Shown here: positions 1-24,030 of the stretch, piece after piece
Position numbering within the stretch: the first letter of the stretch is position 1
How the letters are laid out: each line of letters begins with the position of its first letter
Source: a virus
IMG/VR virus record: IMGVR_UViG_3300032093_000659
Location: 1 to 28,120 of that record
Reading direction: 5' to 3' (one strand)
Length of the DNA stretch: 28,120 nucleotides
Made by a program: the position numbers and the translations under genes
Notes under the pieces: model-generated
Database searches by the model: none
Seen by the model: the letters and a program-made list of their open reading frames with translations, nothing else
Told to the model about the DNA's origin: nothing

Positions 1-1
1 G

Positions 2-1684
2 AAGAAGATGGGTAACCTTCTGGGGACTCAGACTTATGTCATGCAAGAGATACAGAAAGGTTTGGATGAAGATGTTCACTTCTTTGTCATCCTCAAAGGT
101 AGGCAACTGGGTATCACAACTATTTCCTTGGCACTTGACCTTTATTGGCAGTTCACACACCCTGGCTGGCAAGGAACACTCGTTGCGGATACTGAAGAAA
201 ACAGAGACATGTTCCGCTCTACTCTCGCTATGTATATTGAGGGTCTGCCCAAGGAATACAAAATTCCGCTGGTTGCCCACAACAGAAACCAGATGGTTCT
301 TAAAAACAGAAGCAGACTGTTCTATCAAATTGCGGGGAATAAGTCTCGTCTGGGGCAGGGTAAAGCTATCACTTACCTACACGGTACAGAAACCGCTTCT
401 TGGGGTAACGAAGAAGGTTTAGCCTCGTTGATAGCTTCTCTTGCTGAAAAGAATGCAGAGAGGCTGTACATGTTTGAGAGTACCGCCCAAGGCTTCAACA
501 TGTTCCACGACATGTACAAGACTGCCAAACGAGCAAAGACACAACGTGCCATCTTCTGCGGTTGGTGGAGGAATGAGTACTACACCGTCCCCGCTGACTC
601 CAACATCTACAAGGTGTACTGGGATGGCAAGCTGACAGGCGAAGAGAAGGAATGGCACAAAGACATTAAGAAGCTCTACGGCTTTGAGATTAACAGCAGA
701 CAAATGGCTTGGTGGCGTTGGAAGATGGCCGAAGGCATCAAAGATGATGCTCTTATGTACCAAGAGTTTCCACCCACTGAGGACTATGCCTTTGTGATGA
801 CGGGTACATCCTTCTTCTCGCACACACGTTGCACAGAAGCCGCTAAGAAGAGCAAGACCACAGAGTGTGACTACTACAGGTATTCGTTTGGTCAACTCTT
901 CCAAGACACTGAAGTTCTCAAGTCCACAGAAAGACTAGGTACTCTCAAGATATGGGAAGAACCTATAGACAGTGCTTACTACGTGATAGGTGCTGACCCC
1001 GCCTATGGCAGCAGTGACTGGGCAGACAGATTCTGTATTCAGGTCTACCGCTGTTATGCAGATGGTCTAGACCAAGTAGCAGAGTTTGCAACCTCTGAAC
1101 TCAACACCTACCAGTTTGCGTGGGTGATAGCGCACCTTGCAGGTGCATACAAGAACTCTACCCTGAACTTGGAAGTCAATGGCCCAGGTCAAGCTGTCAT
1201 CAATGAACTCAGGAACTTGAAACGCTTGGCAACCTCTATGGGCGGGGCTACAGGGCGTGACTTGATGGATGTGTTGGGTAGCATGACAAACTACATCTGG
1301 AGGCGTAATGACACCCTTGGTGGCCTCTCCAACAGTATTGGATACCTCACCACTGCCAACAGCAAAGAACGCATGTTGCAGTACATGAAAGACTATTTTG
1401 AGCGGGGCATGATGGGCATTCTTAGCATGGATACCCTAGAAGAGATGAAAGGTATCGTGCGAGAAGGAGGCTTCTTAGGCGCACCTGGTCGTGGTAAAGA
1501 TGACCGTGTGATTGCCTCTGCCCTTGCCGCCGTTGCCTACGCAGAACAGATTCAACCTAGATTGATAGCCCACAAGTTGTCTCGCAATGTGAGCGCAGCA
1601 CAAGAGTCTTACAGCCCTGAGCAAATCGCTGTAGGCAGAAATGTCAGCGACTACTTAAAAAGAATAGGAATGTACGGTGCATGA
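2..1684 (+). CDS. terL: Terminase large subunit (TerL), probably 5'-partial
   Basis: DNA-packaging motor: an ATPase that drives genome translocation into the prohead plus a nuclease that cuts the concatemer. Numbering from the first ATG (position 8): a Walker A-like loop KGRQLGITT at residues 30-38, a hydrophobic Walker B strand ending in an acidic residue (ITYLHGTE, about 120-127), a coupling motif FESTAQG at 155-161, and RNase H-fold nuclease acidic positions IGADPAYG (D329), LEVNGPG (E388) and GKDDR (D497/498). The frame is open to the window edge and the Walker A lies unusually close to the first ATG, so the true start is probably upstream. The P-loop has Ile where Lys/Ser is usual, a known terminase variation. 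The gene overlaps the next by 8 bases. Confidence 0.93.
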   Translation, partial: KKMGNLLGTQTYVMQEIQKGLDEDVHFFVILKGRQLGITTISLALDLYWQFTHPGWQGTLVADTEENRDMFRSTLAMYIEGLPKEYKIPLVAHNRNQMVLKNRSRLFYQIAGNKSRLGQGKAITYLHGTETASWGNEEGLASLIASLAEKNAERLYMFESTAQGFNMFHDMYKTAKRAKTQRAIFCGWWRNEYYTVPADSNIYKVYWDGKLTGEEKEWHKDIKKLYGFEINSRQMAWWRWKMAEGIKDDALMYQEFPPTEDYAFVMTGTSFFSHTRCTEAAKKSKTTECDYYRYSFGQLFQDTEVLKSTERLGTLKIWEEPIDSAYYVIGADPAYGSSDWADRFCIQVYRCYADGLDQVAEFATSELNTYQFAWVIAHLAGAYKNSTLNLEVNGPGQAVINELRNLKRLATSMGGATGRDLMDVLGSMTNYIWRRNDTLGGLSNSIGYLTTANSKERMLQYMKDYFERGMMGILSMDTLEEMKGIVREGGFLGAPGRGKDDRVIASALAAVAYAEQIQPRLIAHKLSRNVSAAQESYSPEQIAVGRNVSDYLKRIGMYGA

Positions 1685-2480
1685 CCAATTAACAATTGTC
1701 TCCGTCTACGGTCACAATAACGGAGCATCTGCCATACCCTCCATCTCCCGCTCTATGCGTGAGTTGCCAGGCAGTCAAGGCTTACTCATCTCTATAGAAG
1801 AACCCCCAAACTTGCCAAGCAATGTAGTCTGGAAGCGTTGCCACAACATAGACTACTTAGGGTATTCCCTGTTTATGATGCACAGCCTGTATTCCTACAT
1901 AGAAACAGACTACTGCCTGATTGTGCAAGACGATGGGTGGGTGCTTAACGGCAAGAACTTCAAACCTGAATACTATGACTACGATTACATAGGCGCACCC
2001 TCACACTGCGCTTTTGGTAACGGTACTCTGTACCTAAACTTTAACTGGACACAGGCAGCAGAGCCTATAAGCGTTGTACAGAATGGCGGGTTTTCCCTAA
2101 GAAGCAAGCGTTTCCTAGAAGCCTGTAACAAGCACGGCATCGTGCACTTGAACAGCAATGAGATACACGGGTGGAACGAAGATGCACAGTTGTCTGTCAT
2201 CCTAAAGCCTGTGCTAGAGAGCTACGGCTACAAGTATTGCCCTATCGACATTGCCAAACACTTCAGCATGGAGTATGTAGGGTACGGTTTTCACGAAGAT
2301 GGGTTTGATTTCTCAAGTTTGCTAGGCCACCATGCCCAAACAAGGAAACTTGCAACAGATAACCACATCGTTGTTCCCGCTGACCCTACCAAATCGTATG
2401 GGGAAGTTAAGTTTATGTTGTGGTTACAGACCCAAGGTTACACAGTGGAGTACAGATATGCCCCCGTTAAGCAAGCGTGA
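1677..2480 (+). CDS. DUF5672 family glycosyltransferase-like protein
   Basis: 267-residue protein that I recognise as DUF5672, a family related to GT-A glycosyltransferases. Visible hallmarks are QDDG at residues 84-87 (acidic metal/nucleotide-sugar position), YDYIGAP at 102-108, QNGGFSLRS at 135-143 and WNEDAQLS at 166-173. There is no signal peptide or membrane segment, so it should act in the cytoplasm. It starts inside the end of terL and is itself overlapped by the next gene, so it is translated as part of the packaging operon, an odd site for a sugar-transfer gene. Substrate is unknown: capsid, host surface sugar or DNA are all possible. Function is inferred from the family. Confidence 0.8.
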   Translation: MHDQLTIVSVYGHNNGASAIPSISRSMRELPGSQGLLISIEEPPNLPSNVVWKRCHNIDYLGYSLFMMHSLYSYIETDYCLIVQDDGWVLNGKNFKPEYYDYDYIGAPSHCAFGNGTLYLNFNWTQAAEPISVVQNGGFSLRSKRFLEACNKHGIVHLNSNEIHGWNEDAQLSVILKPVLESYGYKYCPIDIAKHFSMEYVGYGFHEDGFDFSSLLGHHAQTRKLATDNHIVVPADPTKSYGEVKFMLWLQTQGYTVEYRYAPVKQA

Positions 2481-2847
2481 ACTCACAAAACACATGCAAC
2501 GCTTCTATGCAGACAAGGATAGAGGCATCTCTATAGCCCTTTTTGCCGAACTTGCAGGGATAAGTCATGGTCATTTCCATGATGTATTCATCTACAACGA
2601 AGAGCCACTGACAGAAAACGTGCAAAAACGGGTCAGTAAAGCCTACCAACAGTGGAAAGCGGGTAACGTGAAGATTATGAAACGCATAGATAACACCCGC
2701 TATGTGGACTACAGAAAAGAATCTCAACCCGTTTTTAAGCCAAAAATGGGTCTGCAAGTGACCTCAGATGGCATAAAAATCAAAGTTGGGATGGCAAACA
2801 GGCACGATTACAGCGAAATTTCACTTGACGAAGCACTTAGGGGGTAA
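2458..2847 (+). CDS. Small HTH-like DNA-binding protein (possible TerS or regulator)
   Basis: 129 residues from ATG 2458, chosen because GGAG (2447-2450) lies 7 bases upstream; the frame stays open further upstream inside the DUF5672 gene, but that part is shadow. The N-terminal half contains ISIALFAELAGISHGHFHDV followed by LTENVQKRVSKAYQQW, the pattern of a Cro/XRE-like helix-turn-helix that recognises DNA. The C-terminal half is basic and unplaced. It sits between packaging genes directly behind terL, so a small terminase role is possible, although TerS usually precedes TerL. A transcription regulator is the alternative. No family was recognised with certainty. Confidence 0.65.
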   Translation: MPPLSKRELTKHMQRFYADKDRGISIALFAELAGISHGHFHDVFIYNEEPLTENVQKRVSKAYQQWKAGNVKIMKRIDNTRYVDYRKESQPVFKPKMGLQVTSDGIKIKVGMANRHDYSEISLDEALRG

Positions 2848-2849
2848 AA

Positions 2850-3347
2850 ATGGGTATTTTGAGAGACTATTACTGCACAAACCACGGTATTTTTGAAGCA
2901 TGGGAGCCTACATGCCCTATGAAACACTGCAAAGGTGAGCTATCTGTCGTTCACTTGAAGCCTGTAGGCACAAGGTCGGCAAAAACCTCTGCAACCGACA
3001 ATAATTTGAAGCAACTTGCCATTGAGTACGACATGACGGACATTAAGTCCACAAAAGAGGGCGAACACCAGACTGGCTACATGAAACGCAAGAATAAGCT
3101 CACTGACAAGCAGTTTGCCGAGGCTACAGACGCAATTCAAGCAAATAATCAAAGACAAACCCGCCCTGGTGACTCCGTTATCTGGGGTGGAGGCGGCAAT
3201 ATCAACATGAAATCTGTCATGGGTGGACAATTTAAGTCTGTTGCTGGAGAATCCGTGGGAATTAACCCCAAAGCAGCGGGTGACTTGCAAGGCCCCCGTG
3301 CGAGTGTGGTAATGAATGACCACGAAAACTTACAGGTGAGAAAATGA
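2850..3347 (+). CDS. Zinc-ribbon-like phage protein, unknown function
   Basis: 165 residues, with a strong GGGGG-containing ribosome-binding site overlapping the end of the previous gene. Near the N-terminus it has C9-x2-H12-x9-C22-x4-C27, a likely zinc knuckle (YYCTNHGIFEAWEPTCP). The middle is polar and charged and the C-terminal third is Gly-rich (IWGGGGN). It overlaps the portal start by ATGA, so it is probably made together with the portal. A head-assembly accessory or DNA/RNA-binding role is possible; I do not recognise a named family. Confidence 0.75.
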   Translation: MGILRDYYCTNHGIFEAWEPTCPMKHCKGELSVVHLKPVGTRSAKTSATDNNLKQLAIEYDMTDIKSTKEGEHQTGYMKRKNKLTDKQFAEATDAIQANNQRQTRPGDSVIWGGGGNINMKSVMGGQFKSVAGESVGINPKAAGDLQGPRASVVMNDHENLQVRK

Positions 3348-4990
3348 GAATCCCTAAAGAACCCGTAGCCAGAGAACAGTTTTATTTAGACCTCATTGAA
3401 AAGTGCCTTGTCAGTCGTGAGCAACGCAAGGTTGACTACTCTTCTTTGCGTTCTTACTACCTGTTTGGCAATGCGCCTGATGACGTTCCCGCCATCTACA
3501 ACAAAATCTACCCGCACATTGACCAACTGACCTCGTTCCTGTACTCAGCAGAAACCACCAAGTTCTCTATCCACACAGGTGCGTCTGTTGCAGATGAGGA
3601 ACAAATCAAAGTTCCTACATTGAGCAAAGCACTCAACGATGAGTGGCTTAACAGCAATGCCGACCAAGTGTTTTCAACCGCAGTTACTTGGTCACTTTGC
3701 TATAACTCCACCTTTGTCAAACTGGTCATCAACAACGGCATCCACCCCTACATGGTAGAACCCGCCTGTATAGGCGTGTTGCGTGAAGACAGTGCCTACA
3801 CTGACAGACAAGAAGCCTTAGTCCACTCCTACTACATCACCAAGTCGGAGTTATTTGACAGGCTCTACAGTCACCCCCAAAGAGACAGCATTGTCAAGCG
3901 AGTCATGTCTACTGAGCATGAGCGCACAGAGATTGCCAACGGCATCCAACGCATCATCCTCTCTCAAACCAACCCGTCCATGTACGGTAACGTCAACTTA
4001 GACCTGTCTGGCAACCCAACCTATAAAGCCCAAGTCTCTGAAGGCACAATTGAAATGATTGAGCTTTGGGTGTGGAATGATGAGACTAAAGACTATCAGG
4101 TGGTTACAAAGGCTGACCCCAACGTCATCATCTATGACCGTACAGGCGAGTCCATGTTCTTGAAAGGCGAGTTGCCTTTTATTCAAATCTGCCCCAACCC
4201 GCTGTATGACTACTATTGGGGAGGCTCAGAAGTTCAACGCTTGGTCTATCTCCAGCAGTTACGCAACAAGCGCATGACTGAGATTCTTGACTTGCTCTCT
4301 AAACAAGTCAGCCCACCTACCGCCCTGATTGGCTTTACAGGCATTTTGGATGAGAAGAACTTTGCTCTCAACCGTGCGGGTGGTTTGTTGGCAACCGATA
4401 TGCCAAACGCCAAAGTAGAGAAGTTAGCACCCACTATCCCACCTGATTTATTCCGAGAAATTGGTGAAGTTGACCTGATGTTTGAAGAGGCATCTGGCAT
4501 CGTTTCTGTCTTGCAAGGCCGTGGTGAAGCGGGTGTGCGCTCTTCAGGACATGCCTCACAACTTGCCCGTCTAGGTTCAAGCAGAGCCAAGAAACGTGCG
4601 CTTGTCATTGAGGACAGCTTAGAGAAGATGGCAACCTTGTATCTCAAGTGTATGCAGGTCTACGACAACACCCACTACACAGACGCACAAGGACGCAAGT
4701 TCATTGCCGAACAGTTCACAAAAGACTTTGTGGTGAAAGTAGACGCTCACTCTAATTCACCCATCTTCATGGAAGACAGCCGCAAGATGGCGTTTGAGTT
4801 GTTCCAAGCTGGCGTGATTGACAAAGAGTCCTTGCTTGACATGATTGAACCTCCAATGAAACAATTGTTGCTAGAAAGACTCAGAAAAGCAGAGGAAAAG
4901 CAAGCTGCTCAACAAGCTATGGAGCAACAAGCGCAGCAAATGCAACCTCCAAAGGCAGAAGGTAAACCAGACTTAAAAAAGGTGGGATGA
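3344..4990 (+). CDS. Portal protein
   Basis: 548-residue protein in the portal position, between terminase and scaffold/capsid genes. Portal proteins form the dodecameric ring at one capsid vertex through which DNA enters and leaves. Features that fit: length typical of podovirus portals, an N-terminal alpha/beta region, a conserved stretch QICPNPLYDYYWGGSEVQRL leading into a long helical part (LVYLQQLRNKRMTEILDLLS), a loop with GGLLATDMPNAKVEKL, and a Gln/Ala/Met-rich C-terminal tail. AGGTGAG precedes the start. It is coupled at both ends: ATGA overlap with the previous gene and overlap with the following small gene. Confidence 0.88.
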   Translation: MRIPKEPVAREQFYLDLIEKCLVSREQRKVDYSSLRSYYLFGNAPDDVPAIYNKIYPHIDQLTSFLYSAETTKFSIHTGASVADEEQIKVPTLSKALNDEWLNSNADQVFSTAVTWSLCYNSTFVKLVINNGIHPYMVEPACIGVLREDSAYTDRQEALVHSYYITKSELFDRLYSHPQRDSIVKRVMSTEHERTEIANGIQRIILSQTNPSMYGNVNLDLSGNPTYKAQVSEGTIEMIELWVWNDETKDYQVVTKADPNVIIYDRTGESMFLKGELPFIQICPNPLYDYYWGGSEVQRLVYLQQLRNKRMTEILDLLSKQVSPPTALIGFTGILDEKNFALNRAGGLLATDMPNAKVEKLAPTIPPDLFREIGEVDLMFEEASGIVSVLQGRGEAGVRSSGHASQLARLGSSRAKKRALVIEDSLEKMATLYLKCMQVYDNTHYTDAQGRKFIAEQFTKDFVVKVDAHSNSPIFMEDSRKMAFELFQAGVIDKESLLDMIEPPMKQLLLERLRKAEEKQAAQQAMEQQAQQMQPPKAEGKPDLKKVG

Positions 4991-5169
4991 TGGCTCCAAA
5001 CAATACTGGCATGACACAACCTACGGCAGACCAACCAAGGGTTGACACCGCTTCTTTGAAAAGAAACGAAGCGAGTCCTAACTTGACTTTGCGTCAAACT
5101 GGGTATAAAACCTCATACGGAAGGAGTCAAAGGGATTCCAACCGCAAACAATATGGGAGTTCAAGATGA
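4987..5169 (+). CDS. Small polar basic protein, unknown
   Basis: 60 residues starting with tandem ATGs (4987 and 4990) that overlap the portal stop; an AGGTGGG-like site lies just before. The protein is Thr/Ser/Asn/Arg-rich, has no hydrophobic core and ends GRSQRDSNRKQYGSSR, so it looks unstructured or nucleic-acid/virion associated. It ends with an ATGA overlap onto a 13-codon frame. Its place in a chain of coupled frames supports it as a real gene, but no family is recognised. Confidence 0.55.
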   Translation: MMAPNNTGMTQPTADQPRVDTASLKRNEASPNLTLRQTGYKTSYGRSQRDSNRKQYGSSR

Positions 5170-5207
5170 ATATGAAACCAAAAAGCGGTCGTAAGTGCCG
5201 TCGTTAA
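5166..5207 (+). CDS. Tiny basic peptide (13 aa)
   Basis: Frame MNMKPKSGRKCRR, with GGGAG at 5155-5159 six bases upstream and an ATGA overlap with the preceding stop. Six of 13 residues are Lys/Arg. It could be an expressed micropeptide, or only a reinitiation/leader element that keeps ribosomes on the transcript. Ribosome-binding site and overlap are seen directly; expression is inferred. Confidence 0.35.
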   Translation: MNMKPKSGRKCRR

Positions 5208-5275
5208 TCAGGATTCCGTGAGGAATGGGTATGGCTGCCTCCCCTTTGTAGGTGGCCTTGTAAAAAGGAAATGTC

Positions 5276-5350
5276 ATGATGTACGGAAAAGCAAAAATGG
5301 CTCCCAAAATGGCTCGTATGGGACGCAAAGCCCGTAAAGGTCGCAAGTAA
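5276..5350 (+). CDS. Tiny Lys/Arg/Met-rich peptide (24 aa)
   Basis: 24-codon frame beginning MMYGKAKMAPKMARMG and ending in a run of Arg/Lys/Gly. AAGGA at 5265-5269 is six bases upstream of ATG 5276. Ten of 24 residues are Lys or Arg and five are Met. Such short basic proteins beside head genes may bind packaged DNA or the capsid interior, but that is conjecture. A hairpin and a promoter-like site follow it directly. Confidence 0.45.
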   Translation: MMYGKAKMAPKMARMGRKARKGRK

Positions 5351-5357
5351 TGTCTAC

Positions 5358-5382
5358 AGAGGGCTGACAAAAAATGCCCTCT
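5358..5382 (+). terminator. Stem-loop after the 24-aa frame; possible weak terminator or processing site
   Basis: AGAGGGC (5358-5364) and GCCCTCT (5376-5382) form a 7-bp GC-rich stem with an 11-base A-rich loop, eight bases after a stop codon. No U-run follows, so an intrinsic terminator is doubtful. An RNA processing or stability element is equally possible. Confidence 0.35.
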
Positions 5383-5387
5383 ACCTA

Positions 5388-5416
5388 TTGACAAGATGTT
5401 TGTAAGTGGTTACAAA
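5388..5416 (+). promoter_or_regulatory. Candidate sigma70 promoter
   Basis: TTGACA at 5388-5393 is a perfect -35 consensus. Seventeen bases later lies TACAAA (5411-5416), which matches the -10 consensus at 4 of 6 positions. It lies just before the ribosome-binding site of the gene at 5434 and just after a stem-loop, a sensible place to restart transcription of the head genes. The match is by eye only. Confidence 0.4.
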
Positions 5417-5418
5417 CA
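5397..5418. promoter_or_regulatory. Perfect 9-bp palindrome overlapping the -10 box (operator or hairpin)
   Basis: TGTTTGTAA (5397-5405) and TTACAAACA (5410-5418) are exact reverse complements separated by GTGG. The right arm covers the candidate -10 element. As DNA it has the form of an operator for a dimeric repressor or activator. As RNA it would be a hairpin with a 4-base loop, ending four bases before the AAGGAG ribosome-binding site at 5423-5428. Confidence 0.45.
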
Positions 5419-5433
5419 CGGCAAGGAGTGATT

Positions 5434-5901
5434 ATGAGTGTTCCACCAGATAAGTTGATGGAGTTAATGCGAGGTAGCCAAGCGGCTGCGGGCACACCCA
5501 CCCCTAATGAAAAAGAAGAACCAGAAGAAGCAGAAGGTATGGAGGAGCAAGAAGCCCCTCCGATGGCTTCTCCAATGTCTACTCCAGAACCCAAGATGGG
5601 AAACAAAGAAGCCGCACTTATTAACATAAGTATGGCTATTGACTTGCTTGAGCAATCTCTTCCCGCTTTTGGCTCAGTTTCTGAGGAGGGGAAGAAAACC
5701 CTCAACGCTATTCGTGCACTCAGTGGGTTGATTGGTCAGAAAAAAGGCAAAACTGACGAATTACAGCAATCTGAGATTCTTCAGTTAATGCAAACCTTGC
5801 CACAGGCGGGTGGTGCTACCCCTGAAGGCAGAGCAATGGCTCAAGCACCTATCCCTGGTATGCCTCCCGCTGGCGGTATGCCTCCCCCCCCACCCATGTA
5901 A
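5434..5901 (+). CDS. Acidic, Pro/Met-rich head-region protein
   Basis: 155 residues. ATG 5434 is preferred over the upstream GTG 5428 because AAGGAG (5423-5428) is spaced five bases from it. The N-terminal third is Glu/Pro-rich and probably disordered. The middle (about 55-110) looks helical (SMAIDLLEQSLPAF, LNAIRALSGLIGQKK). The tail is a Pro/Gly/Met-rich repeat (PGMPPAGGMPPPPPM). Its place between portal and capsid suggests a head-assembly or capsid-associated protein; no named family is recognised. Confidence 0.72.
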   Translation: MSVPPDKLMELMRGSQAAAGTPTPNEKEEPEEAEGMEEQEAPPMASPMSTPEPKMGNKEAALINISMAIDLLEQSLPAFGSVSEEGKKTLNAIRALSGLIGQKKGKTDELQQSEILQLMQTLPQAGGATPEGRAMAQAPIPGMPPAGGMPPPPPM

Positions 5902-5911
5902 GGAGAAAATT

Positions 5912-6094
5912 TTGGAACTATTCAAACCCCGTGCGGCAGCAGCACCTCGTAAACCAACAGACAACAACCAACAAAATGGCGTTGTCACCAACACTCCACG
6001 TTTCTCTCAGTTCGGTGGCTTGAGTGGCCCCAACAAAGTGAACAAGTCCAGCATGGCTGTCCAAAAGCCAGGTGACGGTAAGCGTGTCATTTAA
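5912..6094 (+). CDS. Small Asn/Gln-rich structural-region protein, TTG start
   Basis: 60 residues beginning at TTG 5912. No ATG is available near the previous gene's stop, while AAGGAG (5900-5905) sits six bases upstream of the TTG, so this start is well supported. The protein (ELFKPRAAAAPRKP near the N-terminus, ending PGDGKRVI) is basic, low in hydrophobics and probably flexible. It lies in the head operon between the Pro-rich protein and the scaffold candidate. Function unknown. Confidence 0.65.
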   Translation: MELFKPRAAAAPRKPTDNNQQNGVVTNTPRFSQFGGLSGPNKVNKSSMAVQKPGDGKRVI

Positions 6095-6115
6095 TCGTAT
6101 AAAGAGGGTAACTTT

Positions 6116-6646
6116 ATGTCACTAGAAAATCTTTCCTTAGAAGCCCGTGATGAGTTGGCTGCACTTGCTCAAACTCTTGCGGAAAACCCTGATACTCGCA
6201 AAGACTTCTTGCGTATGACCAAGAAGGTCAAACCAGACCTTCCTATTCCTGAACTTGACATTGAAGATTACACACACAGAGCGGTCAGCCGTTCCGAAGA
6301 CCGTGTGCAAGCCTTGGAAGCCAAGTTGCGTGAGAAAGAAGCGATTGAAGAACTTAACAATCGCAGACAGAGCTTGATGAAAAAGGGTTTGATTTCTAAC
6401 GAATCAGAAGTTGGTGACGTAGAAAAAATCATGTTGGAGCGTGGTATCACAAATCACGAAACAGCAGCCGAATACCATCAGTGGATGAAGCAAGCCGCAG
6501 TGCCGACTTCATCTGGATACAACCCAAGTGCTGTCAAGCAATTTGACTTGAACAAGTATTGGAAGAATCCAGCAGCCGCTGCTCGTAATGAGGCAATGAA
6601 TGCGCTCAATGACTTGCGTAAACCGCATCGTCCTATTGGGTTGTAA
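6116..6646 (+). CDS. Probable capsid scaffolding protein
   Basis: 176 residues, preceded by GAGGG. It is highly charged and mostly helical: N-terminal helices (LSLEARDELAALAQTLAE), a coiled-coil-like stretch at about 58-88 (SRSEDRVQALEAKLREKEAI), and a C-terminal region with KQFDLNKYWKNPAAAARNEA. A small, charged, helical protein immediately before the major capsid gene is the classical position and composition of a scaffold, which guides prohead assembly and then leaves. The assignment rests on position and composition, not on a recognised motif. Confidence 0.65.
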   Translation: MSLENLSLEARDELAALAQTLAENPDTRKDFLRMTKKVKPDLPIPELDIEDYTHRAVSRSEDRVQALEAKLREKEAIEELNNRRQSLMKKGLISNESEVGDVEKIMLERGITNHETAAEYHQWMKQAAVPTSSGYNPSAVKQFDLNKYWKNPAAAARNEAMNALNDLRKPHRPIGL

Positions 6647-6675
6647 GAGGGTAGTTTTTTTTCATAGGAGGCCTT

Positions 6676-7677
6676 ATGGCTATTGGCGGCGGCATCCTAC
6701 CAGCAACAGGGTCAGCACAGTTCAACGAACTGACTTACGTTACTCGTAGAGCCTTCATCCCCAAGCTGGTTGTCCAGCTTTATAACTCGACACCCCTCAT
6801 GGCGGCTCTGATTGCCAACAGTCAGTCAGCCTCTGGTGGTGTGTCTTCCGTAACCGTTCCTGTCCAAGGCGCACAGTTTGTGAACGCTCAATGGTCTGAC
6901 TACAGTGGCTCTTTTGCCCAACCGTCAGTCCAACAAGGTGCTTACAACGCTGAATTCGACCTGAAACTGATGATTTCTCCTGTACCGTTCCTCGGTATGG
7001 AAGGCGCAGTTCAGCAAGATGCTGCCATTATTCCGTTGATTGAAGCTCGTATGAACGATGCAACCAACGTGATGATGGATGCAATGGCAACCGCTTTGTA
7101 CACCAACACTTCCAACACACAACAGTTCATTGGTTTACCCGCTGCTGTTGCTAACTCAGGCACTTACGGCAATATTGACCGTGGTACTTACACTTGGTGG
7201 AAGTCCTCGCAGTATGCCGCTGGCTCTGTGAACCCAACCCGTCAAAACATTCTGCAATACATTTCTGGCACAGTGAAAGCTGGTGCTGAAATGCCTAGCT
7301 TTGGTGTTTGCGGTTTTGGCACTTGGACACTGTTGGCTCAAGACTTTGTTGGTCAAGAGCAATACGTTATCACCCCAGGCGCAGGTTTTGATGGCGAAAC
7401 CAATGGCCCTCAAGCTGCCTTCCGTGCCTTGATGGTTGCTGGCGTACCTATCTATCCAGACCCTTACTGCCCTGAAGGTACTGTGTACTTCCTGAACACC
7501 AACTACTTGTCTCTGTACATCCATGAGCAAGGTTCGTTTGTGTTTACAGGCTTTGAGTCCACACTCCCGAACTGGCAAATTGGTTATGTTGGCGCAGTTT
7601 TGATGATTGCCGAATTGGTGAACGTCAAACCTAAGTCAATGACCAAGGTGACGGGTTACAACTACCTTTCACTGTAA
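6676..7677 (+). CDS. Major capsid protein (HK97-fold type)
   Basis: 333 residues with a strong AGGAGG site. Position right after the scaffold candidate, length and composition fit an HK97-fold major capsid protein. Typical traits are an N-terminal arm with ELTYVTRRAFIPKLVVQLYN, a central helix rich in small residues (IEARMNDATNVMMDAMATAL, the spine-helix-like segment), and a C-terminal GVPIYPDPYCPEGTVYFLN and YLSLYIH strand region as in P-domain sheets. The family of single-gene capsid proteins seen in many environmental phages has this layout. It would form the icosahedral shell. Confidence 0.88.
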   Translation: MAIGGGILPATGSAQFNELTYVTRRAFIPKLVVQLYNSTPLMAALIANSQSASGGVSSVTVPVQGAQFVNAQWSDYSGSFAQPSVQQGAYNAEFDLKLMISPVPFLGMEGAVQQDAAIIPLIEARMNDATNVMMDAMATALYTNTSNTQQFIGLPAAVANSGTYGNIDRGTYTWWKSSQYAAGSVNPTRQNILQYISGTVKAGAEMPSFGVCGFGTWTLLAQDFVGQEQYVITPGAGFDGETNGPQAAFRALMVAGVPIYPDPYCPEGTVYFLNTNYLSLYIHEQGSFVFTGFESTLPNWQIGYVGAVLMIAELVNVKPKSMTKVTGYNYLSL

Positions 7678-7689
7678 GGAGAAAAAGTC

Positions 7690-8013
7690 ATGGCTTTAGC
7701 AATGAACAAAATCATTCTGGCGAATGCAACGACCAACACTGCTGGTGCGTACTTTGCCAATGTCACACTAACTGCCGCTAACGCAGGTACAGTGATTCCC
7801 GCAGGTACTTACATGGTGTTTCCCGCTGCCAACGTAATTGTGACTGCAAACAATGGCTCATCCATCACAACCTTGCTTGCCAATAACACTGGCGGCATGA
7901 TTTTGTCTGATGGCGTGAACGTGTTTGCACAGTCAACTATTGCTGGCGCAGGTTCTGCAACCGCTTTGACCATCAATGGTGGCATCTCAGCCAACAGCAC
8001 CTACACAAGTTAA
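7690..8013 (+). CDS. Small Ala/Thr/Asn-rich structural protein (capsid decoration candidate)
   Basis: 107 residues, AAGGAG ribosome-binding site directly after the capsid stop. It is almost free of charged residues and full of Ala, Thr, Asn, Gly and Val in alternating beta-like patterns (VTLTAANAGTVIPAGTYMVF). That is typical of small beta proteins decorating heads or tails. Position after the major capsid gene favours a capsid decoration or head-fibre base protein. No named family recognised. Confidence 0.7.
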   Translation: MALAMNKIILANATTNTAGAYFANVTLTAANAGTVIPAGTYMVFPAANVIVTANNGSSITTLLANNTGGMILSDGVNVFAQSTIAGAGSATALTINGGISANSTYTS

Positions 8014-8022
8014 GGAGACAGT

Positions 8023-8433
8023 ATGAACGCAAACCATGTAGGCGCACTGTACCCAGACGGTTTTGGCAATTTTGCTGTTGGCTCTACCAATCCTCCCGTT
8101 GCGATGGGAACCACTGGTAATGCCATAGCAACAATTGCTACTGTCGGTACTGGCTACATTGTTCGCCGTATTACTGCTTTTAATGCCAACGGAAGTGTTG
8201 CGCTTGCCAACGTCACTATCTTTACAAGTAATGATGGTAATTTGGCAAACGCAGTTTCTAATGCAACTGTTCTTTCAAACATTTCTGGCACAGGTTTGTA
8301 TCAAGACCTTGCGTTGACAGCAAATACGTCAACCAAAATCTATACAACACCTCTGTTTGTGTGTGTGAATACAGCGGCAGCAGCAAACAACACTGTTGAT
8401 ATTACTGTGTACGGTGACGTTGTAACACTATGA
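8023..8433 (+). CDS. Small beta-rich virion protein
   Basis: 136 residues with AAGGAG seven bases upstream. Charged residues are rare and the sequence alternates small hydrophobic and polar residues (YIVRRITAFNANGSVALANV, DITVYGDVVTL), which predicts a beta-sandwich. It follows another such protein and is coupled by ATGA to the next gene. Probably a head-decoration or connector accessory protein; the exact role is unknown. Confidence 0.7.
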   Translation: MNANHVGALYPDGFGNFAVGSTNPPVAMGTTGNAIATIATVGTGYIVRRITAFNANGSVALANVTIFTSNDGNLANAVSNATVLSNISGTGLYQDLALTANTSTKIYTTPLFVCVNTAAAANNTVDITVYGDVVTL

Positions 8434-11621: not shown

Positions 11622-12716
11622 ATGGCTGTTCCTAATATTTTCGGTTCTGCAACTTCTGCAATTCCGTTATCGCAACTAGACCAGAATTTTGCTACTGCGA
11701 TTACGCTTGGCAACACTGCTGTCTATCTTGGTAACACCACTACCAGTCTGGGTAATGTGACGCTTACCAACGTCACTATCAGCAGTGGCAATGTGAGTGT
11801 ATCTACTGCTACTGTTGGTGCGGGTAGCAATACTGCGCCTTCCATCACAACTACTGGCGACACCAACACAGGTATCTTCTTCCCTGCCGCTGACACCATT
11901 GCTTTTGCTGAAGGCGGTGCGGAGGCTATGCGTATCGACTCCAGCGGTAATGTGGGGATTGGTGTTACACCGTCTGTTGCCAGCGTAAAACTTACTACTG
12001 TTGGTGGCCCCGTTCAACTAAGCCCTGGGACTACATCTCAGGAAGGTATTCGTTTAACACGGGCATCTGGAATATGCCAGATTAACGGAATCAATAACGA
12101 CAACAACGCATACAACGCTCTTACTTTTGCTACTGGCGCAAGCGAGGCTATGCGTATCGACACCAGCGGTAACTTGCTGGTGGGGACTACTGCAAATGCA
12201 ATTACCGCATACTCCGCATCAAAATCTTTAGTTCAAAGTGCTGATTATTCTGGCTCAGTGGCGCAACTTATAAATTCGACAAGCACCACTGGAACTCAAT
12301 ACTTTCTTGCTTTTGGGCGAGGCGCTTCTGTTTGTGGACAGATTACTTCTGGGTCAACAAACTCCACAAGTTTTACAACATCTTCCGACTATCGCTTAAA
12401 GAAAGATGTACAGCCAATAACAGGTGCTTTGGCAAAAGTTCAAACCTTAAAGCCATGTACATATAAATGGGTTGAAGACAATACGATAAGCGAAGGATTT
12501 ATTGCTCACGAATTGGCTGAAACTTTTCCGCAAGCTGTTGTCGGAGAAAAAGATGCTGTGAATGCTGAAGGCAACCCCGTCTATCAAGGTGTTGACACCA
12601 GCTTCTTGGTTGCCACATTGACAGCCGCTATTCAAGAGCTTAAGGCATTGACAGACACACAAGCCAGCACCATCACAGCCCTGACAGCACGAATCGAAGC
12701 ACTGGAGAACAAATGA
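11622..12716 (+). CDS. Tail fibre with C-terminal S74 intramolecular chaperone
   Basis: 364 residues. The N-terminal part is Thr/Asn/Gly-rich fibre sequence (LGNTTTSLGNVTLTNVTISS). The middle has two copies of the common fibre motif (EGGAEAMRIDSSGNVGIGVT at about residue 100 and SEAMRIDTSGNLLVGTT at about 176). From about residue 254, SSDYRLKKDVQPITG is the hallmark of the peptidase S74/endosialidase chaperone domain, which helps trimerise the fibre and then cleaves itself off before the Ser-Asp site. The end (about 340-364) is a heptad coiled coil. It should be part of the host-recognition apparatus. It overlaps the next gene by ATGA. Confidence 0.87.
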   Translation: MAVPNIFGSATSAIPLSQLDQNFATAITLGNTAVYLGNTTTSLGNVTLTNVTISSGNVSVSTATVGAGSNTAPSITTTGDTNTGIFFPAADTIAFAEGGAEAMRIDSSGNVGIGVTPSVASVKLTTVGGPVQLSPGTTSQEGIRLTRASGICQINGINNDNNAYNALTFATGASEAMRIDTSGNLLVGTTANAITAYSASKSLVQSADYSGSVAQLINSTSTTGTQYFLAFGRGASVCGQITSGSTNSTSFTTSSDYRLKKDVQPITGALAKVQTLKPCTYKWVEDNTISEGFIAHELAETFPQAVVGEKDAVNAEGNPVYQGVDTSFLVATLTAAIQELKALTDTQASTITALTARIEALENK

Positions 12717-13000
12717 ACATCACATACACAATCGCACAACTTGACCGCCAAACCTCTGATGGCTTAGTCACCACTGCTCACTGGCGTGTAGACGCTGTTG
12801 ATGGTGAGCATTCTGCTGGCTCTTACGGCACAGTGGGCTTTGAGCGTGGAGCCACATTCACGGCATACGATTCTTTGACCGAGGCGCAAGTCATTGCTTG
12901 GGTTAAAGACAAGCTAGATGTTGCTGAGATTGAGGCAAGTCTGCAAGCGCAGATTAACGCACAGAAGAATCCAAAGACAGCAACAGGAGTGCCGTGGTAA
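12713..13000 (+). CDS. DUF7936-like phage protein
   Basis: 95 residues, GGAG ribosome-binding site within the end of the fibre gene. The sequence ITYTIAQLDRQTSDGLVTTA followed by HWRVDAVDGEHSAGSYGTVG, FTAYDSLTEAQVIAWVKDKL and a terminal GVPW is a conserved phage family found next to tail fibre genes; I believe it is DUF7936. Function unknown; location suggests a fibre or tail accessory protein. Confidence 0.72.
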   Translation: MNITYTIAQLDRQTSDGLVTTAHWRVDAVDGEHSAGSYGTVGFERGATFTAYDSLTEAQVIAWVKDKLDVAEIEASLQAQINAQKNPKTATGVPW

Positions 13001-13329
13001 TGGGAATTCAAGCCTTTACAAGGACAGGTAACACTGTCACCTTCCTAGCGGCTACAACAGCACCTACTGCTGTACAAGCCGTATCTTCTACGCTAGGTGG
13101 TAACCAGTACCGCATCATCAATGCAGGTTCGGTTACTGTCTTTCTAGGTTACGGTACTGATGGTGCTAGTGCAAACAGTAATGCTGCAATCATTACCACT
13201 ACAGGAACGTCTATACCTCTTTTGCCAGGTACAGATGAAATTCTCTCTTTCGTACCCAACGCTTACTTCACAGGCATTACCGCTAGTAGCAACGCTACTA
13301 TCTACGTGACACCTGGCGATGGTTCATGA
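13000..13329 (+). CDS. Small beta-rich virion protein (paralogue of the 21983 gene)
   Basis: 109 residues from ATG 13000, which overlaps the previous TAA; a GTG at 12994 is an alternative, and AGGAG at 12985-12989 could serve either. It is beta-rich with few charges and contains NQYRIINAGSVTVFLGYG and a C-terminal NATIYVTPGDG. The gene at 21983 shares the order NQY...VF..YG...NA.IY..PG.G. The two are probably related decoration-type proteins. Function is inferred from composition and neighbours. Confidence 0.7.
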   Translation: MGIQAFTRTGNTVTFLAATTAPTAVQAVSSTLGGNQYRIINAGSVTVFLGYGTDGASANSNAAIITTTGTSIPLLPGTDEILSFVPNAYFTGITASSNATIYVTPGDGS

Positions 13330-13337
13330 GGTAAACC

Positions 13338-13922
13338 ATGTTAAAAACAGTCAGTTCAGTTATCAATGCTATAGGCGCACTTAACTACAAAGGTACTTGG
13401 AATGCAAGTACAAATAATCCTGCGCTTACATCAGGCGTTGGGACTAAGGGTGACTACTATGTTGTGTCTGTAGCTGGCTCTACAAACCTAGATGGAACTA
13501 CCTTGTGGGGTGTTGGGGACTGGGCAGTATTTAATGGAAGTATTTGGGAAAAGGTTGACGGTGGTGATTCTGGTAACTTTGTCAACATTTCTGTATCTTC
13601 CCTTACAGGGTACATGTATGCTAACGGCACATCAAATGTCACAGCGTCTACAACCATACCTAACAGCGGTCTAGCTAACAGCACCATCACGCTTGGCAAC
13701 ACTACCTTAACATTAGGTGGAACTACCAGCAACGTAGGTAACCTGACTGTAGCTAATGTCACGATTCTTGGCGGTACTACCAATACTTCTGTGTTTAATT
13801 TCACAAGTAATACAACAGCTACAGCAACGTATGGCGATGCAAGTCTGCCTTTGCAACCTGCTGGATTCATGCAAGTTAATCTCAACGGGACAGTAGTAAA
13901 AGTCCCCTACTACGCTGTCTGA
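13338..13922 (+). CDS. Tail fibre-type protein
   Basis: 194 residues. The N-terminal domain (about 12-75, LNYKGTWNASTNNPALTSGV ... DWAVFNGSIWEKVDGGDSGN) is a domain I associate with phage tail fibre and baseplate proteins. The rest is Thr/Asn-rich fibre sequence, ending AGFMQVNLNGTVVKVPYYAV, a common fibre tail. The TLGNTTLTLGG...NVTI stretch resembles the S74 fibre at 11622, including an identical 15-base DNA stretch. Likely a second, short fibre or fibre-attachment protein. Confidence 0.72.
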   Translation: MLKTVSSVINAIGALNYKGTWNASTNNPALTSGVGTKGDYYVVSVAGSTNLDGTTLWGVGDWAVFNGSIWEKVDGGDSGNFVNISVSSLTGYMYANGTSNVTASTTIPNSGLANSTITLGNTTLTLGGTTSNVGNLTVANVTILGGTTNTSVFNFTSNTTATATYGDASLPLQPAGFMQVNLNGTVVKVPYYAV

Positions 13923-13923
13923 C

Positions 13924-14148
13924 ATGGACAACCAACAAATCTTCAACATCGTAGTCAGCATTGCTGGCTTTCTTGCTGTTTATGTTTTCAACAACACGAC
14001 AAGACAGATACAGAAACTGGAGGACAAGATAAATGAATTACCTAAAGAATATGTGGCAAAAGATGATTACCGCTCTGACATCTCTGAAATCAAAGATATT
14101 CTCAAGCAAATCTTCAACAAGCTAGACGCTAAAGCAGACAAACCATGA
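13924..14148 (+). CDS. Small membrane-anchored coiled-coil protein (possible lysis accessory)
   Basis: 74 residues: one transmembrane segment at about 6-24 (IFNIVVSIAGFLAVYVF), then a charged helix with heptad character (QIQKLEDKINELPKEYVAKD, SEIKDILKQIFNKLDAKADK). The layout resembles XhlA-like hemolysin/holin-associated proteins or an inner-membrane spanin-like anchor. It lies 8 kb from the holin/endolysin pair. Membrane topology is seen in the sequence; a lysis role is inference. It overlaps the next gene by ATGA. Confidence 0.65.
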   Translation: MDNQQIFNIVVSIAGFLAVYVFNNTTRQIQKLEDKINELPKEYVAKDDYRSDISEIKDILKQIFNKLDAKADKP

Positions 14149-14483
14149 ACATGGAAACTCTCTCATACGTCAAGTTCGGTGACAAAGACGGACTGGGAGA
14201 GTTTTTGTTTGAGAACGGAATGCAGCACCAGTTGTTCTACGACATCCTTGGCGACAACGGTATTGCTGTTCAGAAGTATCCGTTGTCAGAAGCTGACTAC
14301 GAAAACCTAGATGACTGGTTGTTTGTGCATAACCAAGAGCATCAGAGGTTGGCTAGTATTTTGGGATTGGACAATCCTTTTCAGTTGTTGGACAGTGATT
14401 GGAATGTGGAAGAGGATTTTTATGATTGGTTAGGTGTACACCTCACCATTCATCAACAGATAGCAACAGCTTTAGGAGTGTGA
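14145..14483 (+). CDS. Three-repeat His-rich helical phage protein
   Basis: 112 residues, start in ATGA overlap with the previous gene (a second ATG at 14151 is possible). Three related segments occur: EFLFENGMQHQLFYDILG, DWLFVHNQEHQRLASILG and DWLGVHLTIHQQIATALG. Each has an aromatic-Leu start, an invariant His-Gln and a terminal Leu-Gly, at about 40-residue spacing. The conserved histidines could bind metal or line a helical bundle. Acidic overall. Function unknown. Confidence 0.7.
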   Translation: MNMETLSYVKFGDKDGLGEFLFENGMQHQLFYDILGDNGIAVQKYPLSEADYENLDDWLFVHNQEHQRLASILGLDNPFQLLDSDWNVEEDFYDWLGVHLTIHQQIATALGV

Positions 14484-14484
14484 C

Positions 14485-14916
14485 ATGGCAGATGTGATGC
14501 AAACAATGAGGAAGCAGACTGTTGCTGAAGACATACCTATGCTTGATATTCTGAGGAATGAAGCAAAACAAAGAGGTGTTAACTTCAACAATTTGCATGG
14601 GATGCTCAAGAGTGACATCAAGAGTGGCAAGACAAGAATCATGCGTTCTGGCAACACTTTGTTGATATATGACATCTTGCAACCAAGCGTAGCTGAATTG
14701 CATATTGCCACTATGGATTCTCCAGAAAAACTTGTTGTTGCTGTCAAAGATTTGTATGAAGCCATGAAAAAGTCAGGGTATAAAACACTTGTTGCTGTAA
14801 CTGACAATTCACAAATTGCACGGGTTTTGAATGTGGCAAAAATTCCTGTTTCTGTCCAACAAATACCAGGCAAAGAAGGTAAGGCCGAGTATCAACTAAC
14901 CATACAGGTGCAATAA
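14485..14916 (+). CDS. Hypothetical protein with GNAT-like look, before the ejection proteins
   Basis: 143 residues with AGGAG upstream. The N-terminal part is helical. Residues about 50-140 alternate strands and a helix (GNTLLIYDILQPSVAELHIA, EKLVVAVKDLYEAMKKSGYK, TLVAVTDNSQIARVLNVAKI), a pattern like GNAT acetyltransferase folds that often occur at this place in podovirus genomes, before the internal virion genes. No acetyl-CoA loop (RGxGxG/A) is visible, so a structural or degenerate role is more likely than catalysis. Confidence 0.6.
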   Translation: MADVMQTMRKQTVAEDIPMLDILRNEAKQRGVNFNNLHGMLKSDIKSGKTRIMRSGNTLLIYDILQPSVAELHIATMDSPEKLVVAVKDLYEAMKKSGYKTLVAVTDNSQIARVLNVAKIPVSVQQIPGKEGKAEYQLTIQVQ

Positions 14917-15989
14917 TGGGTGAAAAAATTAACCAAGCAGCTAATTGGGTTGGCGGTGAAATCAGTCAAGCCGCAAATTTTGTTGGTGAAACAGTAGAGG
15001 CTATTGTTAATGACCCCCTACCATTTATTGCAACCGTTGCCCTGACATCAGTAGGTGTGCCTCCTTATCTTGCTTCTGCTGCCGTTACCGCAGCCAGAGG
15101 TGGAAGTATGGAAGACATTGCTATTGCAGCAGGGTCAGCCTATGTTGGAGGTAAAGTTGGCGCAGAAGCAGGTGCTGCTGCTTCAAGTGCGGGTGCATCT
15201 GCTTCATATGTAAACATTGCCACCGCTGCCGCTGGCGCATCTACTGCTACTGTAGCTGCCAACCTTGCTTATGGAAAGTCTTTTGAAGAGTCTATGCAAG
15301 CAGGTTTGACTGCTGGTGCTTTGTCTGGCGCAACCCAAGGCGTGATAGAGGTTGGACAATATGCGCTTGCACCCCCCGAAACAGGTCAAGGTATCAAAGC
15401 TGTACCAGGCAAATCATCTCAATTATCAAAAGACTCAGGTTTTGGAGAACCTGGAATAACAGAACCATCTTTGCTAGGTGACCAAACCAAAGTCAGTGGT
15501 ACTGGATTGACAGACAAAGTGCCTACAGGTGGTGGTCAAGGTTTGGTGGTAGACCCCGCTACTGTTTTGTACACCTCTCAATTTACACCAAGCACTGGCA
15601 GTAGAGTCAGAGGAACAGAAGAAGGTGGTTTGCAACCAGCATATACATCTGCCGCTGACTCTTCTGGAATAGCTCCATCTACGCCATACCAAGAACCAAG
15701 AACAGTCACAGATATTATTGAAAAGCCAATTTCACCAACAACAGAAGCTATTGCCAAACCAATTATTTCTGGTGCGTTGTCAGAGTTGTTTGGGCTTGGC
15801 CCTAGAGTCCCAGGCGCACCGTCTGCTGGTGGAGCGTCTACAGTTGCTCAAACTGCCACGACAGGCACTACCGTAGGCTTGACAGGAGCGGGTGGAGCGG
15901 GTGAAATTGAAAGTAAAGAGTCTGGCAAGAAGCGTTCAACCGTGTGGAATGAGGAGTCTTTACGACTCAAAGATGCACTAGGAGTGTGA
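14916..15989 (+). CDS. Ala/Gly-rich putative ejection (internal virion) protein
   Basis: 357 residues; start overlaps the previous stop, with AGGTG upstream. The first half is very rich in Ala and Gly with amphipathic or weakly hydrophobic helices (PLPFIATVALTSVGVPPYLA, AAGASTATVAANLAYG), able to enter membranes. The second half is Thr/Ser/Pro-rich and probably disordered. Podoviruses carry such proteins inside the head and eject them to form a channel across the cell envelope (P22 gp7/gp20/gp16 and T7 gp14-16 as functional analogues). The role is inferred from composition and from lying at the start of a block of four similar genes. Confidence 0.62.
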   Translation: MGEKINQAANWVGGEISQAANFVGETVEAIVNDPLPFIATVALTSVGVPPYLASAAVTAARGGSMEDIAIAAGSAYVGGKVGAEAGAAASSAGASASYVNIATAAAGASTATVAANLAYGKSFEESMQAGLTAGALSGATQGVIEVGQYALAPPETGQGIKAVPGKSSQLSKDSGFGEPGITEPSLLGDQTKVSGTGLTDKVPTGGGQGLVVDPATVLYTSQFTPSTGSRVRGTEEGGLQPAYTSAADSSGIAPSTPYQEPRTVTDIIEKPISPTTEAIAKPIISGALSELFGLGPRVPGAPSAGGASTVAQTATTGTTVGLTGAGGAGEIESKESGKKRSTVWNEESLRLKDALGV

Positions 15990-15990
15990 T

Positions 15991-17079
15991 ATGGCAACAT
16001 TAAGAAAGATGACCCGTGTAGGTGCAGATGTGCGCCAGATTGCTCGTTTGCTACAAGCAAAAGCACCTGAAAACCATTTGCTTGCCTACATCACCCCTGA
16101 AGAAGCAGAGTTGCTCAAGTCCAGAGGTGGTAGCGGTATGCCTGACCCACAGACAGGTATTCCTACCTACTATGTTCCTGACCCTGAATATGTTGACCCA
16201 GATGCTTTTGAATACATGCAACAGCCTTTTGGTAGCAATATTACAGACGTGCCAGATATTGCAACATCGGGAGCGACTACTGCTTCTAGCCCAACGACTA
16301 TTGATTTATTGCCTCAGGCTGACTTTTCTGAAGGTGGAAGTCAACAACAAACTTCATATTACACAGGTGGTTCACCTAGTGCGTATGGACAGCCTAGTGC
16401 TTTTTCTTCTTTTCAGCAAGAAACACAACCCTCATATTACATGGGTGGAACACCTGCGGCATACGCTCAATACCCAGCAGACTTAGGTGCAGTTCCTGTT
16501 GATATTAGAGATGAACTTGCCAAACCTATGGACACCACTCCAAGCAGAACTATTGGAGAAAGATATTCTGACCTAGCAAAGAGCTTAGGTGTTAAAGAAG
16601 ACACCTTGTCTCGTATAGGTTTGGCTGGTTTGCAAGTTGGTTTAGGTGCTAGACAAGCTAGATTAGCAAGAGAAGAGGCTAGAAAAGCAAAAGAAGAACA
16701 ACAAAGACTTGCCGCTCCTTACCAAGCAAAAGGTGCAGAATTACAGCGTCAAGCACAGGCTGGAGAGCTTACCCCTGCGGGAAGGCAACAATTGCAAACA
16801 GTGCAAGCACAAGCGGCACAAGCGGCTTCTTCCCGTGGCGGTGTAGGCGCACAGCAAACTGCGGCAAGGGTAGAAGCTATTCGCAACCAATTACTGCAAC
16901 AACAGTATGACTACGGATTGAAGCTGTCAGGTATTGGTGACCAAATACTCTTGGGTTCTATCAGGACAGGTTTGGAAGCTGACAGGTATGTCAATCAGTT
17001 ATCTAACACTTACTTCACAAACGTTGCAAGAACACTTGCAGGTTCACCCACAGTTATCCAATATGGAGTGCCAGCATAA
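15991..17079 (+). CDS. Putative virion/ejection protein with Tyr-Gly repeats and Gln-rich helix
   Basis: 362 residues, AGGAG six bases before ATG 15991. The N-terminal domain (LRKMTRVGADVRQIARLLQA, LLAYITPEEAELLKSRGGSG) is compact. Residues about 60-170 are Ser/Thr/Gln/Pro-rich, with two related motifs SYYTGGSPSAYGQ and SYYMGGTPAAYAQ. Residues about 215-300 form a long Ala/Gln/Arg helix (ARQARLAREEARKAKEEQQR). It is probably packaged or tail associated; the surrounding genes suggest the ejection complex. No catalytic motif is seen. Confidence 0.62.
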   Translation: MATLRKMTRVGADVRQIARLLQAKAPENHLLAYITPEEAELLKSRGGSGMPDPQTGIPTYYVPDPEYVDPDAFEYMQQPFGSNITDVPDIATSGATTASSPTTIDLLPQADFSEGGSQQQTSYYTGGSPSAYGQPSAFSSFQQETQPSYYMGGTPAAYAQYPADLGAVPVDIRDELAKPMDTTPSRTIGERYSDLAKSLGVKEDTLSRIGLAGLQVGLGARQARLAREEARKAKEEQQRLAAPYQAKGAELQRQAQAGELTPAGRQQLQTVQAQAAQAASSRGGVGAQQTAARVEAIRNQLLQQQYDYGLKLSGIGDQILLGSIRTGLEADRYVNQLSNTYFTNVARTLAGSPTVIQYGVPA

Positions 17080-18506: not shown

Positions 18507-18509
18507 AAT

Positions 18510-23883: not shown

Positions 23884-24030
23884 ATGGCATACACACCAAA
23901 AGCCAAGCGTGGCTTGTACTTCAACATTAACCAACGCAGAGCAGCAGGGTTGCCGCCCAAGCGTCCAGGCATGGCGGGTTACCCCACCAAGGCAGCATTT
24001 ATCAAAAGCGCACGTACCGCTAAACGCTAA
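23884..24030 (+). CDS. Small basic conserved phage protein (48 aa)
   Basis: 48 residues starting MAYTPKAKRGLYFNINQRRA, with AAGGAG (23873-23878) five bases upstream. Ends FIKSARTAKR. It contains 13 Lys/Arg and is a type I recognise as recurrent in environmental phages next to other small basic proteins. It is the last plus-strand gene and is cut off from the DUF6321 gene by the homing endonuclease. Its end overlaps the opposing methyltransferase gene by 11 bases. Function unknown. Confidence 0.75.
   Translation: MAYTPKAKRGLYFNINQRRAAGLPPKRPGMAGYPTKAAFIKSARTAKR

Follow-up and report, generated by a model that had tools for sequence, protein, structure and literature searches.

The stretch of freshwater phage DNA analysed here (28,120 nucleotides, hereafter the window) carries at 1677-2480 an open reading frame with a GTG start, which encodes a protein of 267 residues and lies between terL and a short gene, orf3. 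The features of the locus are as follows.

2-1684, plus strand: terL, large terminase subunit, with its 5' end cut by the window edge (phrog_2, E = 4e-13; Terminase_6C, E = 0.0015)
1666-1670, plus strand: AGGAA, a Shine-Dalgarno-like site 6 nt 5' of the GTG of the DUF5672 gene
1677-2480, plus strand: DUF5672 gene, predicted GT-A glycosyltransferase, the cargo of slot B defined below (PF18922, 1e-17; AF2 pLDDT 91.6; GT-A matches at Z of about 12)
1929-1937, plus strand: D85-D86-G87, candidate metal/nucleotide-sugar motif of GT-A enzymes (from alignments; D86 invariant)
2082-2102, plus strand: NGGFSLR, codons N136-R142, conserved motif (N136, G137 and R142 invariant in 25 sequences)
2175-2189, plus strand: NEDAQ, codons 167-171, with a candidate catalytic ED (D169 invariant and E168 nearly so in 25 sequences)
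2458-2847, plus strand: orf3, 129 residues, no family above cut-off; its start is the right edge of slot B, and the same start follows terL directly in empty-slot relatives
2850-3347, plus strand: orf4, 165 residues, with a C..H..C..C N-terminus (possible Zn ribbon, by eye)
3344-4990, plus strand: portal protein, SU10/P22-like (SU10_portal, 4e-6, below its cut-off; phrog_1216, 2e-8)
24481-25227, minus strand: second glycosyltransferase-like gene, core to the phage group and outside the slots (phrog_1574, E = 3e-47; weak Anp1)

The DUF5672 gene overlaps terL by exactly the 8 bases first noticed, at 1677-1684 (GTGCATGA). At its other end, orf3 starts at 2458 inside the gene and creates a 23-base overlap. 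The original prediction had described this next gene as a head gene; the overlap is real, but the label finds no support, as orf3 matches no family above cut-off. A longer orf3 starting at 2332 was rejected, given that this start is unconserved and that both the homologues in relatives and the empty-site junctions use the codon equivalent to 2458. Compared with a full-length homologue of 584 residues (L008), the terL of the window is short of about 24 codons. No promoter-like or terminator-like sites beyond chance were found in positions 1-7700.

Downstream of the portal gene lie a phrog_9953 major head protein and then an SU10-type adaptor. Given this adaptor and the SU10/P22-like portal, the phage resembles SU10 in its head genes. 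Its nearest annotated circular relatives are two genomes of 34-36 kb from Manatee Spring, whose terL genes are 73%-75% identical. A small plus-strand gene at 8023-8433, the second after the major head protein, varies unusually for its neighbourhood (38%-91% identity) and possibly encodes a decoration protein. Relatives differ much more in the tail/fibre-like region (11622-21008, plus strand; one Peptidase_S74 chaperone at 11622-12716) than in the head genes. The second glycosyltransferase-like gene belongs to a leftward module, bears a DxD-like motif (FIDADIKW) and, unlike the glycosyltransferase flanking terL, is present in 21/21 genomes compared. It overlaps by 4 bases a short methyltransferase-like ORF (24020-24484, minus strand; LDLGCGE motif, weak phrog_6636), which occurs in 8 of the 11 slot-B glycosyltransferase genomes compared; beyond these, only a single genome with a methyltransferase in the slot gives a match, at a weak 26%.

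Searches seeded with the glycosyltransferase, which are biased to carriers, recovered the gene from the corresponding position of about 80 further contigs, at 68%-94% identity. Its persistence next to terL in relatives was borne out by a survey of gene order. In the window's clade, the dN/dS of the gene is about 0.11, compared with 0.04 in terL and portal; dS is close to saturation. The sequences thus describe a gene that is constrained yet evolving faster than its neighbours, and its retention in these contigs at such a ratio argues that it is no chance ORF.

A predicted GT-A glycosyltransferase

An HMM check against PF18922, which had been suggested for this gene, matched DUF5672 at residues 63-201 of 267 (E = 1e-17; 64.7 bits against a cut-off of 24.4). 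This is the sole Pfam match of the protein; PHROGs gave no family for it and PADLOC no match. The AF2 model (pLDDT 91.6, pTM 0.90) adopts a Rossmann-like alpha/beta GT-A fold. In Foldseek and VIA comparisons the top PDB structures are GT-A proteins, namely glycogenin, LgtC, LARGE1, alpha3GalT, UGGT and domain 1 of PBCV-1 A064R, with VIA Z scores of 11.4-12.3 over 186-225 residues. In a viral structure library, DUF5672 proteins of phages and giant viruses rank near the top. A PDB sequence search with a profile of 25 diverse relatives found no chain at E<=1. Many GT-A enzymes tie at Z 11-12, and neither sequence nor structure picks among GT8, GT6 and GT34; because of these ties, neither the CAZy family nor an inverting or retaining mechanism can be read from the matches.

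We aligned 11 close and 25 diverse relatives. D86, YDYIGAP, N136-G137, R142-S143 and D169 are invariant in the 25 sequences, and E168 is nearly so; D86, YDYIGAP and the ED pair are kept out to 30%-35% identity. The 25-sequence alignment therefore contains a DxD-type acidic motif together with a candidate catalytic acid. D85 is replaced by N in L071, so the first acid of the DxD-type motif is not strictly required.

The nearest bacterial homologues are betaproteobacterial genes of Burkholderiales (47% identity in Polynucleobacter). In Polynucleobacter MWH-Jannik1A5 a DUF5672 gene stands beside GT11, GT17 and a second DUF5672 gene, and in cyanophage S-H68 it lies within a cluster of sugar-nucleotide and glycosyltransferase genes, away from terL. 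Both clusters support sugar transfer. The other phage members found, in S-B05, S-H68 and S-B43, are distant (33%-35% identical), and we found no DUF5672 member with experimentally tested activity. The proposed assignment to sugar transfer gains support from the PF18922 match, the GT-A model and the homologues in glycosyltransferase or nucleotide-sugar clusters. The product is likely a soluble GT-A glycosyltransferase, as predicted from model and alignments.

Two slots flanking terL

The terL/orf3 junction, termed slot B, was surveyed with terL-seeded searches, which are free of the bias towards carriers. Within the window's clade (terL at least 93% identical), the DUF5672 glycosyltransferase occupies all 30 terL-sampled loci with a readable junction. 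Outside this clade, the junction contains the glycosyltransferase in 39 loci, a methyltransferase in 7, a small ORF in 5 and nothing in 74. Where it is empty, the orf3 start follows immediately on the terL stop. Slot B, when filled, thus contains DUF5672, a methyltransferase (class I, including Methyltransf_11, or FkbM), a small ORF or an HNH endonuclease; L102 carries a glycosyltransferase plus a methyltransferase. The presence of the glycosyltransferase changed by gain or loss at least 13 times on the terL tree. A recent unrelated insertion was nevertheless rejected for the window, because the gene is fixed and under purifying selection in its clade.

Endonuclease-VII-like HNH genes sit exactly between terL and the glycosyltransferase gene in L022 (1360-1896), L041 (2450-2986), L046 (5522-5998), L077 and L100 (about 570-1090); those of L022 and L046 are Pfam-confirmed, the others were recognized by eye. 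They are possible agents of cassette exchange. In L143, L146, L147, L154 and L159, an ORF family of 50-60 residues occupies slot B about 150 bp past terL.

Slot A lies between terL and a small-terminase-like gene, so called by position and size only. Three genomes with an empty slot B match DUF5672 elsewhere, directly upstream of terL. In empty-slot-B phages slot A also holds a GT2 protein (PF00535 at 1.4e-12 in L161, 6e-7 in L212 and 5e-12 in L445). A slot A protein of 218 residues has no Pfam match; its AF2 model (pLDDT 88.1) resembles GT-A enzymes, among them TarP and LH3, and by this model the family looks like an unnamed glycosyltransferase family. Other slot A genes encode DUF5672 (1.6e-11) or match GT34 weakly (E = 0.00095, below cut-off). 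L161 carries adjacent GT2 and 218-residue GT-A genes at 4578-5926, with 4-base overlaps between the two and with terL. Relatives also have, on the upstream side of terL, genes for an RmlC-type epimerase (L051, 1168-1632), an NAD-dependent epimerase (L248, 2237-3214), a 2OG-Fe(II) oxygenase (L236, 1453-2049) and a radical-SAM protein assigned by eye (L445, 3010-3921).

Both slots were compared in 155 loci, a de-duplicated sample enlarged by two further terL scans, in which each locus has 1.2 kb or more of upstream sequence and a slot B that could be resolved. Cargo classes were derived from sequence clustering, and representatives were checked by Pfam or structure. Slot B contains DUF5672 in 56 loci, none of which has a glycosyltransferase in slot A. 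Slot B is empty in 88 loci; here slot A has a glycosyltransferase in 75 (71 excluding the weak GT34 group) and lacks one in 13. No slot A glycosyltransferase accompanies the 6 methyltransferases or the 5 small ORFs of slot B. A glycosyltransferase or methyltransferase thus stands beside terL in 137 of the 155 loci, neither flank has a glycosyltransferase in 24, and two-sided co-occurrence of glycosyltransferases is zero. Two or more adjacent glycosyltransferase genes are found in 23 slot A loci; what holds is therefore a single cassette on one or the other flank of terL, which may comprise more than one gene.

The Pagel test, run on a terL tree with 144 rows, preferred the dependent over the independent model (LRT 34.7, 4 df, p = 5e-7), and among 540 simulations under independence, with similar marginals, only one produced zero co-occurrence. 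A strict sign test on starred independent pairs points the same way, with 0 same and 3-5 opposite (p 0.06-0.25), but has too few pairs to reach significance. In the DUF5672 tree, the slot B genes of L187, L191, L192, L199 and L432 nest inside the slot A group, indicating that DUF5672 has switched sides of terL. The gene of the window belongs to a separate slot B group close to Polynucleobacter genes, in a tree where some long branches make the bacterial placements unsure. Judging by this tree, DUF5672 has probably passed repeatedly between phages and Burkholderiales.

It had been claimed that expression of the gene goes with packaging rather than accessory genes. It does sit in the overlapping string from terL to portal, which on gene order alone would suggest late expression. 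The contrast with accessory genes fails, as the terL/orf3 junction is an accessory slot in its own right, where the glycosyltransferase was gained or lost 13 times or more. The best reading of the gene is an exchangeable, one-per-genome glycosyltransferase cassette, presumably expressed late given its gene order.

Possible roles of the cassette

We propose that an exchangeable cassette site flanks terL, with a soluble GT-A glycosyltransferase as its present cargo. Translation of the enzyme would come late and be coupled, through overlapping start and stop codons, to that of terL and the head genes. Its sugar would come from a host-supplied nucleotide sugar, because no sugar-nucleotide pathway was seen beside the gene in the window. 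Each phage may need one surface-glycan-modifying enzyme, be it a GT2, the unnamed GT-A, DUF5672 or a methyltransferase. In the weakest step of this model, the acceptor is most likely a co-produced virion protein, and progeny would leave with a lineage-specific sugar decoration. We hold with about even confidence the whole reading of a late-made GT-A cassette flanking terL, one glycan modifier per phage, that most likely decorates virion proteins. Against it, methyltransferase-only and glycosyltransferase-free genomes (the 24 loci above) show that the glycosyltransferase is dispensable, and the bacterial homologues in glycan clusters suit host-glycan targets equally. By inspection of 21 genomes, no virion gene was found to track the slot state.

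The strongest alternative, which we regard as a serious possibility yet short of probable, is that the enzyme edits a host surface glycan (LPS, capsule or a lipid-linked precursor) late in infection, and thereby masks the receptor, sparing progeny loss on debris and infected cells, or blocks superinfection. GT2, DUF5672 and methyltransferase cassettes would then be alternative receptor masks. Methyltransferase-only slots fit the editing of an existing host glycan better than the building of a new one, the nearest bacterial homologues are the Burkholderiales genes that in Polynucleobacter lie within a glycosyltransferase cluster, and the model of the 218-residue slot A protein resembles TarP. 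This transferase, which acts on wall teichoic acid, is encoded by a prophage and influences sensitivity to phages. Quick cassette turnover would also suit an arms race with the host, and the tail genes of these phages vary strongly. However, no membrane or flippase partner stands beside the gene, unlike in gtrABC operons, and its place in the terL string suggests an expression that is late for exclusion. No integrase was seen in 16 related records (fragments cannot prove absence), which makes lysogenic conversion unlikely. A search of 398 genomes of the Polynucleobacter family, run without a positive control and hence showing little, found no prophages of this phage family. The evidence is not decisive; decoration of virion proteins is placed slightly ahead because the gene is part of the string of overlapping packaging and head genes and lacks a membrane partner.

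The remaining explanations fare worse. We consider it improbable that the glycosyltransferases are pure cargo, with no packaging or virion role, carried by homing-endonuclease-borne insertions that the terL flanks tolerate. The HNH/endonuclease VII genes exactly at the terL/glycosyltransferase junction and the patchy presence of the cassette, replaced by a 50-residue ORF or nothing in other relatives, would agree with this; but random cargo would be neither a glycosyltransferase or methyltransferase in 137/155 loci nor shun a second glycosyltransferase opposite, and strict purifying selection and fixation in the window's clade speak against it as well. Glycosylation of hypermodified bases of the phage DNA before packaging appears very improbable, even though the gene adjoins the packaging ATPase and alternates with methyltransferases. 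AGT and BGT of T4, the classic phage DNA glucosyltransferases, have the GT-B rather than the GT-A fold. In addition, homologues lie in surface-sugar clusters, and base-hydroxymethylation genes were not noticed, in an inspection that was not systematic.

An enzyme that transfers sugar or methyl groups flanks terL in nearly all relatives, to its left or to its right but in no case observed on both sides, a pattern that points to a putative conserved late role in decorating the virus or host surface. More tentatively, a whole family of small freshwater tailed phages may follow a rule of one glycan-modifying enzyme beside terL, in which unrelated glycosyltransferases and methyltransferases stand in for each other on either flank and never occupy both flanks of one genome, competing for a single conserved task of diversifying a virion or receptor glycan. 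If true, terL would be the hub of a lineage-swappable glycotype locus. Phage-encoded glycosyltransferases are already known, their targets mostly not, and we find the rule around terL more interesting than the single gene. That the terL-side position is kept while enzyme family and side swap, with no two-sided co-occurrence, amounts to a natural experiment, in which virion or host differences can be sought among DUF5672, GT2 and methyltransferase phages of the same family. The slot pattern thereby gives DUF5672 a testable function.

Comparison with known systems

The cassette shares with gtr cassettes and TarP the form of a single, exchangeable, phage-borne glycosyltransferase. In gtrABC serotype conversion, carried by temperate phages, a gtrA flippase and a gtrB bactoprenol glycosyltransferase accompany a membrane glycosyltransferase. 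The gene of the window instead has terL and two uncharacterised ORFs as neighbours, and the related records show the lack of integrase described above.

PF18922, a domain of unknown function, is found in phages, giant viruses and bacteria, and the protein of the window is a member above cut-off. With domain 1 of PBCV-1 A064R (2p72) it has the GT-A fold in common (Z 11.9, 3.8 Å over 186 residues), at a Z score tied with many GT-A proteins. Glycosyltransferase and class-I methyltransferase chemistries occur both in A064R and among the slot cargo, and both systems are viral. The window's protein differs in being single-domain and without detectable sequence homology to A064R, which comes from a eukaryotic virus. 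A064R is a glycosyltransferase-glycosyltransferase-methyltransferase protein that builds the chlorovirus capsid N-glycan (PMC9614988). In the mycobacteriophages Che8, Corndog and Myrna, phage glycosyltransferases are reported to glycosylate capsid and tail tube proteins (PMC12363180, citing Freeman 2023). These are phage-encoded, as here, in different phages; exclusivity of one glycosyltransferase per genome is not among the features reported in the part of that article drawn on here. For the virion-protein acceptor that we favour, A064R and the mycobacteriophage enzymes provide precedents.
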